From positions 4,700-68,699 of the forward strand of contig JAAXWO010000014.1 of assembly GCA_013334965.1 (NCBI GenBank): DNA of 64,000 nt. The letters run 5' to 3'. The DNA comes from Chlorobiaceae bacterium (GTDB lineage: Bacteria; Bacteroidota; Chlorobiia; Chlorobiales; Chlorobiaceae). A model generated the notes under the pieces. The model saw only the letters and a program-made list of their open reading frames with translations, was not told where the DNA came from and made no database searches. Within the stretch, counting starts at the first letter, position 1. Each line of letters starts with the position of its first letter. Below, piece by piece: positions 1 through 27,741 of the stretch. A program made the translations under genes and the position numbers.

Positions 1-690
1 TTCGTCGTCGTCAGCGTCGTGCCGACGCCCAGTGTCACGTCGTCATTGTAGGTCTGCGTGCCGCTCGTCGTCACACTGCCGCCGTTGATCGCCGTCGTGC
101 CGCCTGCGTTCGTCAACACGCTCGCTGCCGTCACCGCGCCGCCCAGCGTCGTCGTGTTCGTGCTGTTCAGAACCAATGCGCCCAATCCCTGGGTCACGCC
201 AGATCCAACCGCACCCGTCAACGTGATCGCGCCGCTTCCAGCAGAGATCGTCAGACCATTGCCTTCCGTTGCTTCGCTGTCTACCTTCGAACCGAACAGA
301 ACCGCACTGTTCGTCGTCGTCAGCGTCGTGCCGACGCCCAGTGTCACGTCGTCATTGTAGGTCTGCGTGCCGCTCGTCGTCACACTGCCGCCGTTGATCG
401 CCGTCGTGCCGCCTGCGTTCGTCAACACGCTCGCTGACGTCACCGCGCCGCCCAGCGTCGTCGTGTTCGTGCTGTTCAGAACCAATGCGCCCAATCCCTG
501 GTTCACGCCAGATCCAACTGCACCCGTCAACGTGATCGCGCCGCTTCCAGCAGAGATCGTCAGACCATTGCCTTCCGTTGCTTCGCTGTCTACCTTCGAA
601 CCGAACAGAACCACACTGTCCGTCGTCGTCAGCGTCGTGCCGACGCCCAGTATCACGTCGTCATTGTAGGTCTGCGTGCCGCTCGTCGTC
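1..690 (-). repeat. 309-bp in-frame tandem repeats inside the exoprotein gene
   Basis: Two full copies with a 309-bp period (about 1-309 and 310-618) plus the start of a third boundary near 619-690 are seen. They differ at only a handful of positions. 309 is divisible by three, so each unit adds 103 residues. The array continues past the left edge, so total copy number is unknown. Such near-identity indicates recent expansion or gene conversion. Confidence 0.9.
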
Positions 691-3056
691 ATGATTGACG
701 TATTGATAATGATGCCTGAAGGACCAGTCAGGTCGACACTGCCAGCGTTTATGGTATTGTTAAGTGTCAGAGTTGAAGCAACTCCAGCATCTGCCTTAAG
801 AAGACCAGTAATCGAAACCGTGTTGAGCGACATTAAATCCGTATCAGTCAATGTCACATCTTTACCGCTTGATATGGTAACAGCACCACCAAAATTGTTG
901 CCAGCATTTGACAGATCAATATCGTTGCCTGCGCCAGCGTCAAACGTCGACGCCCCCGTTACGCTCAGCGTCGCGGCAGGCGCCTGTGAGATTTTGCCTG
1001 CAGCCTTAGCACTCAGAGTGCCACCAACACTCGATGTACCAATTACTATACCGACAGCATTTTCCGTAAGGGATACATTGGTGAGACCAGTCGTGATTAA
1101 CGTACCTGCGGAATATCCGAATGTGGCGCCGCCAGCAATTGTCATTGACATATTGGCTGGATTGGCGAGCCCCGTATCATACTTAACGTTGACTGTTACA
1201 TTTTTTAGCGCACTTGTCGCATCAATGTACATATCATATCCAGCCCCTGTAATTGTTGCATCAAGGGTTTGGGTATCAATGTAAACCGGCGCACCAAACG
1301 TTCCGATGCCCTGTGAGGAGGACAATGTCACTTTACTAGCAGTAAGCGTTCCTGACGTTTGGGTGATCGAGCCGCCCCCATCCGCAGTCAGAAGAATATT
1401 CCCGGCAGTTGAAAGCGAAGCATTTAAAGAAACGTTATGTCCTGCGCCTAAATATATTTGGCCTATACCAGTATTTGTAATGGCATCATTAACGATAATG
1501 TCATGCCAAGAACCGAGGGTCAAACCAAAAGGACTTGACCAGCTGACAGGAGATCCAGCGGCGACAGTTATAACTCCATCTCCGCCACCACTAGTTTGAA
1601 CAAGAACATCAGACATGCCAAGTGCAGACGTCAGAGTTACGGTGTTAAGATTCGATGAAGCAGCACTGGGTGTGAATGGTGTTGCTCCACTGATATTGCT
1701 GTTAGCTGCTGTACTGATAGTAACTTCTGAAGGATCGAGCAACAACGTTCCCGTTGTACCATGCGTTGCACGAAGGTCCGTGAATCCCTCATAGTCGAGA
1801 TATGCTTTACCCGACACCTCGGCAAATCCACCGTTGCCGCCGAGCTGGCCGCCTCTTGCGCTGATATTTCCATAGAACTGTGTGCCGTCGTTCGACCAGA
1901 GGATGACCTTGCCGCCGTCGCCGTACGAGATCGCGTCGGCGTTGATCTGCGCATCGATGCCGACATAGGCCCGGCTGGCGTTCAGTACCCCGGCGTTCTT
2001 GCCCTGGTAGTCGCCGCCGACCAGCACCGTCCCGCCGCCAGCTTCACCCGATGCGTCGATGCGCGTGCCGTCAAACAGCCCGACCTTCTCGCCGAGCACT
2101 TCCACGACACCTCCCGCCTGCCCGGCTCCCTTGCCGGAAACGTCGATGGTACCGCTGTTCTGCGTTATGCCTTCGTCTCCGCCCGAAAGGATGACCGTGC
2201 CGCCATCGACATCGAGCGCCGTGGCTTCGATGACGCCGCTGTTGTTCACCACCGAGGAGAACACGTTGCCGCCTGCGTTGCCCACCAGCACGACCTCTCC
2301 GCCTTTGGCCGAAATGGCGCCGCTGTTCTCCACGCCTGCGCTCATCGGCTTGCCGTCAGGGCCGATCACGCTCTCCAGCACCTTCCCCGAAACCGTGTAG
2401 GTCATCAACCCGTCACCGTTGAAGTCGAGCGTCAGATCCTTCCCTGAGGCCATCACCACCTTGCCGAGTTGGGCCTCGATCCTCCCCTGATTGCTCACCC
2501 CGGGAGCGACCAGGAAGCAGAAGCCGTTGTCCGCAATATGGATTTCACCCTGGTTCACCACCCAGCTGTTCGCCTTGCCGAGTTCCTGCGTGAAGAGGTT
2601 GCGACCGCTCATGAAATCGTCGCTGTCGATCGACAGGGTCGTCGCCACCAGGCCTGCCACGTCGATCTTCGCTCCGGCGCCGAACAGGATGCCGTTCGGA
2701 TTGGTGATGAACACCCGCCCGTTGGCCGAGAGCTGGCCGAGTATGCTCGTCGGATCGCCGCCCGTAACCCTGTTGAGCGCAACCGAGCTGGCGCCGGGCT
2801 GGTTGAACCTGACCAGTTCGTTGGAATTTATATTGAAGCCTCGCCAGTCTATCACCGCCCGCGTGCTCGCCTGGTCGATGGTGGTCGCCGTGCCACTCTG
2901 GGAAATATTGGCTGACCCCTTGACCACCAGGCCGTTGGTCGGCGCAGTGAAGGCGAACATCGGATAGAAAAATAGCATCGCTGTGGCTGAAACCATACTG
3001 ATCAGCGGTTTCCTCATGTAAGGAAGAATGCGGGCGGAGTGGAATGAGTGCCTCAT
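1..3056 (-). CDS. Two-partner-secretion exoprotein (haemagglutinin-like adhesin), 3' end outside window
   Basis: The reading frame is open from an ATG at 3056 to the left edge (over 1000 residues) without a stop, so the gene is cut by the window. The N-terminus has an extended signal peptide ending near AFTAPTNG, followed by a TPS/haemagglutination-activity domain with the family hallmarks (a VxGSANISQSG start, VALNRVTGGDPTSILGQL, and NPNGILFGAGA at about residues 100-130). The rest is a Ser/Thr/Gly/Asn-rich beta-helix-type passenger. The last ~230 visible residues are near-identical 103-residue repeats. A weak SD (GAGAGA) lies just before the 3056 ATG; an ATG at 3017 is an alternative start. 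Proteins of this family are exported by Sec and then by a TpsB outer-membrane pore; no tpsB lies in the window. Likely a surface or released adhesin; its ligand is unknown. Confidence 0.85.
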   Translation of the reverse strand, partial: MRHSFHSARILPYMRKPLISMVSATAMLFFYPMFAFTAPTNGLVVKGSANISQSGTATTIDQASTRAVIDWRGFNINSNELVRFNQPGASSVALNRVTGGDPTSILGQLSANGRVFITNPNGILFGAGAKIDVAGLVATTLSIDSDDFMSGRNLFTQELGKANSWVVNQGEIHIADNGFCFLVAPGVSNQGRIEAQLGKVVMASGKDLTLDFNGDGLMTYTVSGKVLESVIGPDGKPMSAGVENSGAISAKGGEVVLVGNAGGNVFSSVVNNSGVIEATALDVDGGTVILSGGDEGITQNSGTIDVSGKGAGQAGGVVEVLGEKVGLFDGTRIDASGEAGGGTVLVGGDYQGKNAGVLNASRAYVGIDAQINADAISYGDGGKVILWSNDGTQFYGNISARGGQLGGNGGFAEVSGKAYLDYEGFTDLRATHGTTGTLLLDPSEVTISTAANSNISGATPFTPSAASSNLNTVTLTSALGMSDVLVQTSGGGDGVITVAAGSPVSWSSPFGLTLGSWHDIIVNDAITNTGIGQIYLGAGHNVSLNASLSTAGNILLTADGGGSITQTSGTLTASKVTLSSSQGIGTFGAPVYIDTQTLDATITGAGYDMYIDATSALKNVTVNVKYDTGLANPANMSMTIAGGATFGYSAGTLITTGLTNVSLTENAVGIVIGTSSVGGTLSAKAAGKISQAPAATLSVTGASTFDAGAGNDIDLSNAGNNFGGAVTISSGKDVTLTDTDLMSLNTVSITGLLKADAGVASTLTLNNTINAGSVDLTGPSGIIINTSIMTTSGTQTYNDDVILGVGTTLTTTDSVVLFGSKVDSEATEGNGLTISAGSGAITLTGAVGSGVNQGLGALVLNSTNTTTLGGAVTSASVLTNAGGTTAINGGSVTTSGTQTYNDDVTLGVGTTLTTTNSAVLFGSKVDSEATEGNGLTISAGSGAITLTGAVGSGVTQGLGALVLNSTNTTTLGGAVTAASVLTNAGGTTAINGGSVTTSGTQTYNDDVTLGVGTTLTTT

Positions 3057-21221: not shown

Positions 21222-22628
21222 TCAGGTTCCGGCCCCGAACTGTGCTCGCAGTTCATCCGCTGTACGTTCGTCGGCGGGAGTGATTTTTATTCGTTCCGGA
21301 ATCGAGCTGTAGAGGCTCCTGAAGTTCCTGACGCATCCGGGAGATGAGAAGTAGATCTCGTCGATGAAATCGAGGTCGATGGCGTCCTCCTGCTGCTGGG
21401 TGCCGTGCACGTAGACGCCCAGCGGGGTCACCCTGTTTCCTGCCTCTCGAAGCTCCGCAGCCACAGACTCGTCCACGTTGCCTGAGCAGGGCAACAGGAT
21501 GTGCTGATGAGCCAATCCCTCCTTGTCGAGCATTCCCGATAATCCCAGGCCTGCAGATGAGCTCGATTCAAGGCAGCAGTCGGGGATAATTCCGTAGGTA
21601 AGCAGCTCCGCAGCGGCAGCGCGGCCTGAGGTGCAGATGGACATGTGGGCCAGGTGCCGAACGTCCCTCCCATGTTCGAAGAGGTACTGGAAAAAGTATT
21701 TGACCGCAGACTTGTTCTGGAAAAAGAGCATCGAGAAGTCGTCGATGCCTTCAATGCACGCCTTGACGGCATCGAGGTCGGCCCCCGCGACCTGGCGGCA
21801 GGGAAAGTTTACGATGATGTAGTCGGTGTTGCGGTAGCGTCGTGAATCACCGCCGGTCATGAGCACCTTCTTCTTGCGCGAGTACCAGTTGTTCTCGATA
21901 AACTGGCTGATGTTGGCGCCGATGATCAGCAGGGCGGGCGAATAGACCGCCTTATCGCGCCTCCGGAACTCGTCGAGGGTACCGGTGAAGGTCTGCTGGT
22001 TATATCGGGTGGCGTTCTGGATGACGGCGACCCTGGTCTCCGGGCTCCGTCCTTTAGCGGCAACCGCGTCGAGCACGTCGTGTACGGATGATGCGACCAT
22101 GTAGTAAACGATCGTGTCAGTGTCGGGCACCTGGATTTTGCTGACCGGGTGGCCGGTGCAGAACGCGACCGAGGAGGAGACCTTGCGCATGGTCAGGGGA
22201 ATCTCGGTATAGGCGCTGGCGCCGTGGGCAGCTGTGATGCCGGGAACGATCTCGTAATCGATGCCGTACTGGCGAAGCGTGTCGATCTCTTCGCCTCCAC
22301 GCCCGAAAATGAAGGGATCGCCACCTTTGAGACGGACGACCTTTTTACCTTTGAGGGCGTGTCGGACGATCTCCTGGTTGATCTCCTCCTGTTCGAAGTG
22401 GTGGCTGTCCTTGCGTTTGCCGGTATAGATCTTCTCGGCGCCGTACTGCTCAACAAGATCGGGGCTGACCAGGTCGTCGTAGAGGATGACGTCGGCCTCG
22501 CGAAGCGCCCTGTCTGCCTTGATGGTGAGAAGTTCAGGATCGCCGGGCCCTGCTCCGACTATGTAGACGTATCCCTTATGTGCAGGATCCTGCGTCTGGC
22601 CGGACCCGGAATTGGTCGAAACGGTCAT
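21222..22628 (-). CDS. dsrW: Uroporphyrinogen-III C-methyltransferase fused to uroporphyrinogen-III synthase-like domain (DsrW)
   Basis: A 468-residue two-domain protein. Residues about 18-260 form the SUMT domain that makes precorrin-2 with [41 protein letters not shown], and [19 protein letters not shown]. Residues about 265-460 resemble HemD uroporphyrinogen-III synthase. It follows the precorrin-2 dehydrogenase by 21 bp, so the pair supplies siroheme for DsrAB. The name dsrW follows usage for green sulfur bacterial dsr clusters. It is the last gene of the island. Confidence 0.88.
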
Positions 22629-22649
22629 GTTTGGTACTTCTTTACAGCG

Positions 22650-23111
22650 TTAATCGTTGCTATCCGGCCATCCGTTCATCACGATCTCCCTGAGCCTGTT
22701 TCGCCACTCCACCGATTTCTTGACGTTCTGGCCGTTCGATGAGATCGCGATGGTCATTTCGTCCTGCTTTATGATCGCAGGAGAGATGAAGTCGGACAGT
22801 TCGCGGTTGTCGACGACGTTGACCATGATCCCGCGTGCCTCCGCATCATCCCTGATGCGACGGTTGACTTCGGTGTCGTTGGTCGCCGCGTAAACGAGGA
22901 AAAAGCCGTCGAGGTCCGAAGATTCGTACTCTTTGTAGATCTCGGTGAATCCTTTGCCCTTGAGCTCTTCGCTGATGAATGGCGCAAGGATGGTGATGTT
23001 CCGGGTATACTGTTCGACGGTCTGGATCTTGTGCAAGGCGATCTTTCCTCCGCCTACGAACAGCAGCTTCCTGTTGTCGACCCTGATGTTGAGCGGGAGA
23101 AATACCTTCAT
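22650..23111 (-). CDS. dsrV: Precorrin-2 dehydrogenase / sirohydrochlorin ferrochelatase-like (DsrV), short
   Basis: A 153-residue protein with the N-terminal Rossmann domain of Met8p/CysG ([33 protein letters not shown], and MTIAISSNG). It oxidizes precorrin-2 to sirohydrochlorin with NAD+. Met8p and the CysG N-domain are usually above 200 residues, so the C-terminal dimerization/chelatase part is shortened and iron insertion may need another enzyme. It is separated from dsrP by the 2.5-kb repeat array, yet keeps the dsrP-V-W order. Confidence 0.85.
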
Positions 23112-23273
23112 GGATGGATTCGTTTTGATAAGTATGAACGGTCGCCCTGCCGGCTCAGTTCCCGAAAAGGCTGCTTGTTAACAAGGTAATCATTGGAAAT
23201 GGATATTGTCCGCGAACCCGATGGGATAAAAGATCCTGGGCGTCAATTGATTGGGCCAATGCGCTCTATATGA

Positions 23274-25797
23274 TTGCATTTTCTTCAGTTGCCCCGGACT
23301 TCAGTCCGGGGTTAGTGCTCCCAAAATATCATGGACTTCAGTCCAATATCTTCTTGCGAACTTTCGCGTCCACTTCATGAATCAGCAGTTCATCCCGCAG
23401 TCCATGTCATTTCCCGATTTTGGACCGGAGTGAAGATTTTGGACTGAAGTCCAGGAATTTTATTCATTTAAATCTCTCTCCCCCCGGGTTGAAACCCGGG
23501 GCAACTGGGATGTAAGATGTCTTAATGTCCGGAGGGTTAAAACCATCCTGAATTTGGGACGCTGAAACGGATCCGAGGAAACTATGTTCTTGCATTTTCT
23601 TCAGTTGCCCCGGACTTCAGTCCGGGGTTAGTGCTCCCAAAATATCATGGACTTCAGTCCAATTTCTTCTTGCGAACTTTCGCGTCCACTTCATGAATCA
23701 GCAGTTCATCCCGCAGTCCCTGTCATTTCCCGATTTTGGACCGGAATGAAGATTTTGGACTGAAGTCCAGGAATTTTATTCATTTAACTCTCTCTCCCCC
23801 CCCGGGTTGAAACCCGGGGCAACTGGGATGTAAGATGTCTTAATGTCCGGAGGGTTAAAACCATCCTGAATTTGGGACGCTGACACGGATCCGAGGAAAC
23901 TATGTTCTTGCATTTTCTTCAGTTGCCCCGAACTTCAGTCCGGGGTTAGTGCTCCCAAAATATCATGGACTTCAGTCCAATATCTTCTTGCGAACTTTCG
24001 CGTCCACTTCATGAATCAGCAGTTCATCCCGCAGTCCCTGTCATTTCCCGATTTTAGACCGGAGTGAAGATTTTGGACTGAAGTCCAGGAATTTTATTCA
24101 TTTATCTCTCTCCCCCCCCGGGTTGAAACCCGGGGCAACTGGGATGTAAAATGTCTTAATGTCCGGAGGGTTAAAACCATCCTGAATTTGGGACGCTGAC
24201 ACGGATCCGAGGAAACTATGTTCTTGCATTTTCTTCAGTTGCCCCGGACTTTAGTCCGGGGTTAGTGCTCCCAAAATATCATGGACTTCAGTCCAATTTC
24301 TTCTTGCGAACTTTCGCGTCCACTTCATGAATCAGCAGTTCATCCCGCAGTCCATGTCATTTCCCGATTTTAGACCGGAGTGAAGATTTTGGACTGAAGT
24401 CCAGGAATTTTATTCATTTAAATCTCTCTCCCCCCCGGGTTGAAACCCGGGGCAACTGGGATGTAAGATGTCTTAATGTCCGGAGGGTTAAAACCATCCT
24501 GAATTTGGGACGCTGAAACGGATCCGAGGAAACTATGTTCTTGCATTTTCTTCAGTTGCCCCGGACTTCAGTCCGGGGTTAGTGCTCCCAAAATATCATG
24601 GACTTCAGTCCAATATCTTCTTGCGAACTTTCGCGTCCACTTCATGAATCAGCAGTTCATCCCGCAGTCCCTGTCATTTCCCGATTTTGGACCGGAGTGA
24701 AGATTTTGGACTGAAGTCCAGGAATTTTATTCATTTAACTTTCTCTCCCCCCCGGGTTGAAACCCGGGGCAACTGAGATGTAAGATGTCTTAATGTCCGG
24801 AGGGTTAAAACCATCCTGAATTTGGGACGCTGAAACGGATCCGAGGAAACTATGTTCTTGCATTTTCTTCAGTTGCTCCGGACTTCAGTCCGGGGTTAGT
24901 GCTCCCAAAATATCATGGACTTCAGTCCAATATCTTCTTGCGAACTTTCGCGTCCACTTCATGAATCAGCAGTTCATCCCGCAGCCCGTGTCATTTCCCG
25001 ATTTTGGACCGGAGTGAAGATTTTGGACTGAAGTCCAGGAATTTTATTCATTTAACTCTCTCTCCCCCCGGGTTGAAACCCGGGGCAACTGGGATGTAAA
25101 ATGTCTTAATGTCCGGAGGGTTAAAACCCTCCTGAATTTGGGACGCTGACACGGATCCGAGGAAACTATGTTCTTGCATTTTCTTCAGTTGCCCCGGACT
25201 TCAGTCCGGGGTTAGTGCTCCCAAAATATCATGGACTTCAGTCCAATATCTTCTTGCGAACTTTTGCGTCCACTTCATGAATCAGCAGTTCATCCCGCAG
25301 TCCCTATCATTTCCCGATTTTGGACCGGAGTGAAGATTTTGGACTGAAGTCCAGGAATTTTATTCATTTATCTCTCTCCCCCCCCGGGTTGAAACCCGGG
25401 GCAACTGGGATGTAAAATGTCTTAATGTCCGGAGGGTTAAAACCATCCTGAATTTGGGACGCTGACACGGATCCGAGGAAACTATGTTCTTGCATTTTCT
25501 TCAGTTGCCCCGGACTTCAGTCCGGGGTTAGTGCTCCCAAAATATCATGGACTTCAGTCCAATTTCTTCTTGCGAACTTTCGCGTCCACTTCATGAATCA
25601 GCAGTTCATCCCGCAGTCCATGTCATTTCCCGATTTTGGACCGGAGTGAAGATTTTGGACTGAAGTCCAGGAATTTTATTCATTTAACTCTCTCTCCCCC
25701 CGGGTTGAAACCCGGGGCAACTGGGATCTGAGATATCATAATGTCCGGAGGGTTAAAACCATCCTGAATTTGGGACGGTGAAACCCGGGGCAACTCA
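23274..25797. repeat. Array of eight ~317-bp palindrome-rich (REP/MITE-like) tandem repeats
   Basis: Eight units start at about 23274, 23590, 23908, 24224, 24541, 24858, 25174 and 25490, with periods of 316-318 bp. Each carries CCCCGGACTTCAGTCCGGGG, then TGGACTTCAGTCCA, TGGACTGAAGTCCA, and a CCCGGGTTGAAACCCGGG hairpin; a GGAGGGTTAAAACCATCC element lies in the spacer. The ~230-bp core of each unit is bracketed by inverted ends AGTTGCCCCGG and CCGGGGCAACT, as in a small non-autonomous element, with ~85 bp of spacer between cores. Length changes come from a C-tract next to the last hairpin. The array ends in an isolated right terminus at about 25781-25797, seven bases before the dsrP stop. There is no open reading frame of note and no transposase in the window. 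Confidence 0.95.
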
Positions 25798-25803
25798 GAC
25801 AGA

Positions 25804-26955
25804 TCAATCCTGCATCTTGACACTGATGGCGACCTTGAGCAGGACGGTGAGCACCAGCAGGCCGATTGACCATATGCCGAGGGTGACCGACAACTCTGTC
25901 AGGGTGGGCATGTAGTCGACGATAGCATCGAGCGGGGTGGGGATGAAGCCTCCGATGACGAGACCTACGCCCTTGTCGATCCATATGGAAAGCACCAGGC
26001 CGATGCCAGCGGCAATCATCCACGCGTTCTGACGGCGTAGCGGGGGCGTCAGGAATACGGCCACAGAGGCAAGGCCGAGAATAAGCGAAAACCACATGAA
26101 CGGCACGAGGGGAGCGTGGCCTTCAAGTCCGAAGTAGAGGTACTGAAAGCTGTGCATGTGCCCGGGGATGTTGCTGTAGAACGCCGTGAAGAACTCCGTC
26201 CCGAGCAGGAAGAAATTGGCCAGCCCTGCGTAGGCACAAAGCACGACGAGCTTTTCGCGCGCTTCCCTGCCTGCGTCGTAACCGGCCACATTCTTCAGAA
26301 TGAAGCTGATGAGGATCAGGATGGCCGTTCCTGCCGCAAAGGCAGATGCGAGGAAGCGGGGAGCAAGCACCGCCGTGAGCCAGAGATGACGCGAGGGCAG
26401 TCCTGCGAAGAGGAACGCGGTGACCGTATGGATGCTGAACGCCCAGGGAATCGAGAGGTAGATGAGCGCCTTGGTCCAAGAAGGAGCGGGAACGCCTTTG
26501 CGCTCGGCGCCGAGCACGGCCCAGCCACTGATGATGTTGAGCATCAGGTAACCATTGAGCACCATCACGTCCCAGAAGACCATGGAGTGGGGCGAAGGGT
26601 AGCGCAGGACGTTGAGCACCCGCTGCGGCTTGCCCATGTCGGCAAGGATGAAGAGCATGCACATCAGGGCGGCAGAGACGGCAAGGAACTCGCCCACGAT
26701 GACCATTTTACCGAACGCCTTCTGGTTGTGCAGGTAATAGGGCAGGACCACCATCACGGCCGAAGCCGCCACGCCGACAAGAAACGTGAACTGTGAAATG
26801 TAGACCCCCCAGCTGATGTCGCGTCCCATGCCGGTGACCCCTAGCCCGAGGTTCAGCTGCTGGCTGTAACCGGTGATGCCGATCCCAATGAACACAAGCA
26901 GCAGGGCAACCCATGCCCAGTAGGCGCGATTTCCTTTGAGCGCTTTCTCGATCAT
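25804..26955 (-). CDS. dsrP: DsrP, NrfD-type integral membrane subunit of DsrMKJOP
   Basis: A 383-residue membrane protein with about ten predicted helices, NrfD/PsrC family. DsrP exchanges electrons between the menaquinone pool and the periplasmic DsrJO part of the complex. It starts 9 bp after dsrO on the same strand and is the last gene before the repeat array; the first palindromic unit is only a few bases past its stop, so the array could form the 3' end of the dsr transcript. Confidence 0.93.
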
Positions 26956-26964
26956 GGCTTCTCG

Positions 26965-27741
26965 TTAGATGATGTAAAAAACTGACGGCAGCGTGCCGAG
27001 TTCCGGCTTGCGCTGCATGGTTTCGTTGGCATGGAGCATCGTACGGATCTCCGATTTCGGATCGTTCAGGTCTCCGAAGGTGAGCGCCTTTTCAGGACAG
27101 GTGTCGACGCATGCCGGCAACTGACCGTCGACCAGTCGTTCTGAACAGAAGTTGCACTTTTCGACCACGCCCCTCTCCCTGGTGGGATAGGTATCGCTCA
27201 GCTCCCTGATGCCCGGTCGAGGATCCTGCCAGTTGAAGCTTCTTGACCCGTAAGGGCATGCTGCCATGCAGAAACGGCAACCGATGCAGCGATGGTAATC
27301 CATGGACACGATGCCGTCCCAGCGCTTGAAAGTCGCTTCGGTCGGGCATGCGCGGGTGCATGGAGGCTCGGTGCAGTGGTTGCAGAGGGTCAGCACCTTG
27401 CGCGACTTGACATCGTCGCCCTGGAACTGCTGGCTCGCAGTCGGGAAAGCCTTTTCGTACGGGCTTTTCCATATCCACTTGACCTGGTTCTTCGAGTTGC
27501 CGAAATCGGGCACGTTATGGGTGTGATGGCACGCGGCGATACACTGGGTGCAGCCTTCACTGCACTTGCGGGTATCAATGAGCATGCCCCACCGGGTCTT
27601 GCCCGGCATCGGTTTTTCGGGAAAAATCGACAGGTCGGTCTTTTCGAGGGCTAATGCCGGGAAAAGTCCCGCGGCTGCGCCAAGTCCGGCAAGGGCTCCG
27701 AGTCCGGCCTTTTTGAGGAATTCTCTACGTTGTTGATTCAT
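26965..27741 (-). CDS. dsrO: DsrO, periplasmic FeS subunit of DsrMKJOP
   Basis: A 258-residue ferredoxin-like protein with a Tat signal (RREFLKKAG, residues 5-13). The four cluster motifs are visible, including [40 protein letters not shown] and CNFC...CVDTCP. The ATG at 27741 overlaps the dsrJ stop by four bases (ATGA) and starts the Tat signal directly; the frame is open further upstream but that part is dsrJ sequence in another frame. It passes electrons between the DsrJ hemes and DsrP in the periplasm. Confidence 0.95.

Follow-up and report, generated by a model that had tools for sequence, protein, structure and literature searches.

We found that the gap between dsrP and dsrV in a Chlorobiaceae bacterium holds eight composite hairpin units in tandem, and we put at about 80% the probability that this array arose by local amplification of a composite REP (REPIN/MITE-like) element belonging to a genus-wide family, the element being most likely a non-autonomous relative of a tnpA unit, since the same hairpin ends bound a single-copy tnpA elsewhere. 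The array lies in a stretch of 64,000 nucleotides that was analysed as a whole (the window); C numbers below denote clusters of the repeat in the same genome, L numbers loci and G numbers genomes.

The array and its units

An earlier note on this DNA had claimed a tandem array between dsrP and dsrV, and this was borne out: tandem repeat finding (TRF) delimits a head-to-tail array at 23274-25781 (period 316, 7.9 copies, 97% matches), in which we count eight units of 316-318 bp, the final one having 292 bp, a copy number that comes from one draft assembly (20 contigs). The note had described near-identical 317-bp units; the units run, in order, to 316, 318, 316, 317, 317, 316, 316 and 292 bp, all eight are distinct, and any two differ by 3-12 substitutions. 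The hairpins, inverted ends and C-tract length changes that it had described were all seen: GTTGCCCCGG / CCGGGGCAAC inverted ends and GGACTTCAGTCC hairpins are present, with single-base changes in some units, and the C-tract measures 6-8. Variants are shuffled across the units, with four combinations in 6/15 informative site pairs. An extra H1' foot (CCCGGGGCAACT) terminates the array 73 bp past the last H1', with its end near 25796.

Each unit consists of a 218-bp element, in which inverted hairpins are nested and both outer feet carry GTTG, followed by hairpin P4 and a spacer, so that ~98 bp of each repeated unit lie outside the element. The orientation of the element (plus for unit 1) is taken from the tnpA locus elsewhere in the genome. 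The features are as follows.

21222..22628, minus strand: dsrW-like gene (uroporphyrinogen-III methyltransferase + HemD fusion)
22650..23111, minus strand: dsrV-like gene, CysG-N-like (siroheme synthase N-terminal domain); in the dsr sense it lies downstream of the array
23274..25797, plus strand: array of eight composite REP-type units and terminal H1' foot
23274..23589, plus strand: unit 1, 316 bp
23590, 23908, 24224, 24541, 24858, 25174, 25490, plus strand: starts of units 2-8
23288..23505, plus strand: 218-bp REPIN/MITE-like element of unit 1, GTTG-H1 ... H2 ... core ... H2' ... H1'-CAAC
23288..23311, plus strand: left REP, with GTTG tag at 23288-23291 and H1 CCCCGGAC-TTCA-GTCCGGGG at 23292-23311
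23332..23345, plus strand: hairpin H2, TGGAC-TTCA-GTCCA
23346..23439, plus strand: core
23440..23453, plus strand: hairpin H2', TGGAC-TGAA-GTCCA
23482..23505, minus strand: right REP, inverted, with H1' CCCCGGGT-TGAA-ACCCGGGG at 23482-23501 and CAAC at 23502-23505 (GTTG on the minus strand)
23531..23548, plus strand: hairpin P4, GGAGGGTTAAAACCATCC
25804..26955, minus strand: dsrP (NCBIfam DsrP 456 bits vs. a cut-off of 350), its stop adjoining the array

The edge of the window (1-691) also carries 2.2 copies of a 309-bp repeat in tandem (98% matches, TRF), perhaps part of a repetitive gene.

The repeat family and its partner transposase

The earlier note had proposed searching the genome for further copies of the unit and for a RAYT gene. 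With one array unit as query, the first search returned 147 matches in the same genome; the second found a RAYT (C12, L025:1108-1821; NCBIfam REP_Tyr_transpos 91.9 bits, cut-off 80), which stands apart, with none of the array's repeats nearby. An HMM scan (LE, MOD) of the window and of 19 regions of the genome picked from the 147 matches gave 103 LE and 167 MOD hits, grouped in 26 clusters, which sit between called genes (heuristic caller, some distant neighbours). TRF arrays occur in 16/26 clusters, with composite periods of 286-444 bp, modules mostly of 68-80 bp and one site of 116 bp; by eye, arrays C3, C7, C15 and C18 and the C19 copy have a common hairpin plan and differing cores. The commonest part among the matches listed in other genomes is H1' with P4 (unit about 211-282, a ~72-bp module). 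At L036 6758-7987, a 72-bp array of ~17 copies, with an unread stretch, adjoins a 760-aa open frame, and at L043 2154-2234 the heptamer GATAATG is repeated 11.6 times.

The family runs through the whole genus. The pattern RTWG-CCCC-N4-TTYA-N4-GGGG was found in 21/21 genus genomes (4-96 copies each; 70 in the genome studied here) and in 1/60 genomes of the sister genus, as one copy, and a reversed control pattern gave none in the genus and one match in one other of the 60. When a single unit served as query in a DNA search that scored up to 9 candidates per genome, the family turned up in 20/21 genus and 0/60 sister-genus genomes. An Rfam search of 22000-27000 at E <= 1 gave no match, and we did not find this repeat family described in the literature on Chlorobi and green sulfur bacteria, covered mainly through openly readable papers.

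The hairpins, each with an 8-bp stem and a 4-nt loop, show both covariation and polarity (RTWG tag, TTYA loop). Among 169 anchored instances, 136 have inner arms with full complementarity (shuffles: mean 51.5, maximum 68), the instances coming from own and related loci after removal of the duplicate loci L086, L137 and L139, many of them from the same arrays and not independent; with duplicate loci included, the count is 143/180 (shuffles: mean 53.7, maximum 67), and on that set loop polarity is 180 TTYA vs. 0 opposite. Among 281 hairpins, each counted on both strands, the tags are GTTG (96), ATTG (25), GTAG (11) and ATAG (5). Stem and loop agree with the rule for REPs (stem >=7 bp, loop 2-5; PMC6006769, in part), and the family is high-copy and extragenic, as REPs are; the 5' GT[AG]G foot of REPs is lacking, and one foot bears an RTWG tetranucleotide instead.

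Five Y1 genes were found in the genome, and only that at C13 (tnpA, L036:3823-4281, minus strand) is surrounded by these repeats; the other four had no LE or MOD hits nearby. Three longer Y1 proteins (L022, L023 and L024; frames of 328-336 aa) have none of these repeats nearby, and the L023 and L024 genes, 1158 bp apart, are near duplicates by appearance. Read in the tnpA sense, the C13 locus runs from unit 11-80 through tnpA to unit 153-286, the order and orientation being those of the element, and on this alignment the array unit looks like the tnpA element minus its gene. Orthologues of tnpA occur in 11/21 genus genomes including this one, the other ten being 61-72% identical to it. With flanks read by eye, H1 lies <=260 bp 5' of tnpA in 10/11 and H2' with H1' lie 3' of it in 8/11; the exceptions are G028 (degenerate), G010 (5' side only) and G030 (without the 3' pair).

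Judged by NCBIfam, a PDB profile search and its Y-x3-Q motif, TnpA is of IS200/IS605 type. It scores 71.7 bits with transpos_IS200 (cut-off 55) and 21.5 with REP_Tyr_transpos (cut-off 80), and thus falls below the NCBIfam cut-off for a classical RAYT (TnpA_REP); at E <= 0.001, transpos_IS200 matches 11/11 orthologues and REP_Tyr_transpos, more weakly, 10/11. The best PDB matches are 2xm3, 2xma and 2xo6, with 2a6m (ISHp608 transposase) fifth, and E. coli TnpA_REP (4ER8) is absent from the nine PDB sequences at E <= 0.01. Y-x3-Q is the signature of subclass 1.1 (PMC6006769, in part). The REP/MITE reading of the earlier note is therefore supported by palindromes, inverted ends, genome copies and a Y1 gene with the same ends, and it fails as to the RAYT partner, which is of IS200/IS605 type.

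The gene does not behave as a multicopy mobile IS gene: there is one match per genome in 10/11 genus genomes, with a second, 38% identical, in G026. Its surroundings are common to G000 and G028, to G002, G008, G024, G032 and G034 (linked through one flank or the other), and to G018 and G030, with G026 and G010 as singletons; since neighbouring DNA is common to related genomes, tnpA has for the most part kept its position, as a REP transposase does. What is found is thus a REPtron arrangement, namely a single tnpA flanked by its own REP family and not moving as a unit. Hairpins are in weak excess in genomes with tnpA (one-sided Mann-Whitney p 0.029, uncorrected for kinship), and they also occur in the 10/21 genus genomes where tnpA was not detected, among them G004 with the maximum count of 96.

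The dsr neighbourhood

The gene dsrP is present in 18/21 genus genomes, and we measured the dsrP-dsrV gap in 16 genus relatives and five loci outside the genus sample, after dropping L046 and L047 as apparent duplicates of G002 and G016; in G032 dsrP is present and the contig ends short of dsrV. The gap is <=156 bp in 12/16 genus relatives and 340, 400, 541 and 802 bp in the other four; at the five outside loci it is 163-287 bp. Comparing this interval in relatives, as the earlier note had suggested, we found the 317-bp unit in 0/21 gaps and a diverged piece of the repeat family in two only (G034 and G038). In the sister species G028 (DsrP 96%), the gap contains two oppositely oriented copies of another REP-like hairpin, and a scan of it gave no LE or MOD hits. 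At L051, in a relative outside the genus sample, part of the gap is taken up by a run of AACCAGCT octamers.

The earlier note had suggested that the array could end the dsr transcript, stabilise its 3' end or uncouple dsrVW expression. The array begins 6 bp beyond the dsrP stop, and one might suppose that it is a selected regulatory insert, with hairpins that terminate or buffer transcription of the dsr genes and so separate dsrVW expression from that of dsrMKJOP. Its position fits such a role, as does a neighbouring gene context in which at least one 3' end was called as facing the cluster in 25 of the 26 clusters: heuristic calls, with a few neighbours far off, gave 12 convergent, 13 codirectional and 1 divergent (vs. 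23, 94 and 24 of 141 background pairs), and the sole divergent call (L036 14971) is at odds with an open frame. However, neutral insertion would also be expected to avoid 5' sides. Terminator-like sites in 22600-26100 are in excess (25 vs. 4.5 in shuffles), with eight in the dsr sense, one per unit, and predicted folding is strong on both strands; yet the sites in the dsr sense are weak (5-bp stems with 3 G-C pairs), and the promoter-like sites (9 vs. 2.9 in shuffles) all lie on the plus strand and point away from dsrVW. With the unit also missing from the gaps of all 21 relatives, we regard selection for a regulatory role as unlikely, while the array may have some influence on the dsr transcript, through mild polarity or protection of the 3' end.

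Growth of the arrays and comparison with known systems

Under the preferred reading, that of a locally amplified composite element, TnpA would cut and move the single-stranded hairpin form; one founder would have inserted between dsrP and dsrV, a position just past the dsrP stop where it probably does little harm; and this founder would have multiplied in place via slippage or unequal exchange between copies. We sought the flanks of 14 clusters of this genome in the sister species G028 and placed both flanks for nine. Two composites in tandem were found in the sister at 0/10 compared sites (the nine intervals and dsr). The sister carries one composite at each of C7, C8 and the second C9 site, and at C8 two adjacent modules as well; it has one pair of modules at the L033 site, remnants at C3 and at one C13 site, and no LE or MOD hits at the first C9 site, the L032 site and C15. 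At the five comparable sites with tandem composites in our genome (C3, C7, C8, C15 and dsr), the sister thus has one composite in 2/5, a remnant in 1/5 and none in 2/5.

At C7 the cores of the two species score 44 (shuffle maximum 19) and, by this alignment, are the same by descent; a tandem array here against a single copy with the same core in the sister favours amplification in place. The second C9 site has modules only in our genome, against a composite in the sister, and this composite together with the paired C8 modules in the sister means that change was not one-way. A precise empty site was not found in the sister, whose flanks differ by ~12-24%. The middle of the dsr core (unit 86-150) is spanned by 9/147 matches in the genome, namely the eight array copies and C19. 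The C19 copy, which matches the unit at 73% over 281 bp, was considered as sharing the dsr core and dropped, the cores alone not being alike: although C19 is the nearest other copy over its length, its core scores 12 against that of dsr (shuffle mean 14). No relative of the dsr core was found among the 147 matches beyond the array, and, the dsr and C19 cores being unlike, the comparison does not support recent movement from a master copy.

Alternatively, the copies could stem from an element that inserted again and again next to itself through target preference, with no local duplication. IS200/IS605 transposases do choose sites via a tetranucleotide beside the hairpin (PMC6006769, in part), but the repeated unit takes in the ~98 bp beyond the element, in other arrays the repeated block comprises several modules, and the dsr copies are 97% alike whereas the arrays compared by eye have cores that look different; we consider this origin improbable. 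That the copy number is an assembly artefact is less probable still, for although the assembly is a draft and the C13 array contains an unread stretch (X in translations), no two of the eight units are the same and the contig is continuous through the array into dsrP and dsrV.

The RAYT has a REP-like family of its own, with three hairpins inside the RAYT open frame; this frame was read stop to stop, and the start codon may lie downstream of the first hairpin. A REP family within the transposase reading frame has been reported for subclass 2.4 (PMC6006769, in part). Strict copies of this second family, with the pattern GGGAACGC-NNAGC-NCCA-GCTNN-GC, number 18 in G028 and 3 in G000, and 12/21 genus genomes have matches to it. 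In G028 it occupies three intergenic sites whose counterparts in our genome hold the first family, and it also stands beside the single composite at a fourth; its sites there are L105 2730-2868, L134 435-545, L133 511-651 and L128 721-744. We propose tentatively, at somewhat less than even odds, that in this genus an IS200-type (class 1) transposase was independently domesticated into a REPtron, at a stage intermediate between insertion sequence and REP system, whose composites are multiplying in place in one species, with the RAYT-linked second family in some of the same sites of the sister (dsrP-dsrV, C15, and C13 beside first-family remnants).

Elements of the IS200/IS605 family resemble this system in their Y1 HUH TnpA with Y-x3-Q, a gene between inverted hairpins and gene-less copies with the same ends, and PATE is the name for their non-autonomous derivatives. 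Unlike these, the present family has one tnpA per genome (with the 38% relative in one genome) at sites common to related species, its gene-less copies stand in tandem arrays, and a precise insertion site was not found. REP, REPIN and BIME clusters (PMC3733652 and PMC6006769, in part) share with it a short hairpin, a tetranucleotide at the 5' foot, inverted pairs, an intergenic position, many copies and tandem clusters reiterated with flanking DNA. Since tandemly reiterated REP clusters are already in print, the earlier note's view of tandem amplification as unusual was overstated. The present family differs from those clusters, as described in the same parts of these papers, in its tag (RTWG, mostly GTTG or ATTG, vs. 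GT[AG]G), in a second, untagged hairpin on each side and in its IS200-type partner transposase. Nor is its tag CGTC, as in the repeats reported in Chlorobi (PMC3733652, in part). Class 3 TnpA_Y1 systems (PMC6006769, in part) are alike in combining an IS-like Y motif with REPtron-like surroundings and many hairpins, and differ in Y-x4-Q and a CnGA foot vs. Y-x3-Q and RTWG here. The array family is therefore of REP/REPIN type: it adds a member to an already known class of repeats, one whose partner transposase is unusual, and does not represent a new kind of system; the descent relation of IS200/IS605 and REP transposases is treated as open in PMC8266576.

The genus offers a tractable case of a single-copy, place-keeping IS200-type TnpA amid a large family of hairpin repeats, and arrays that differ between sister species could reveal how REP clusters grow. 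For the dsr genes, the array is a natural test of how much 2.5 kb of hairpins between operon genes matters.
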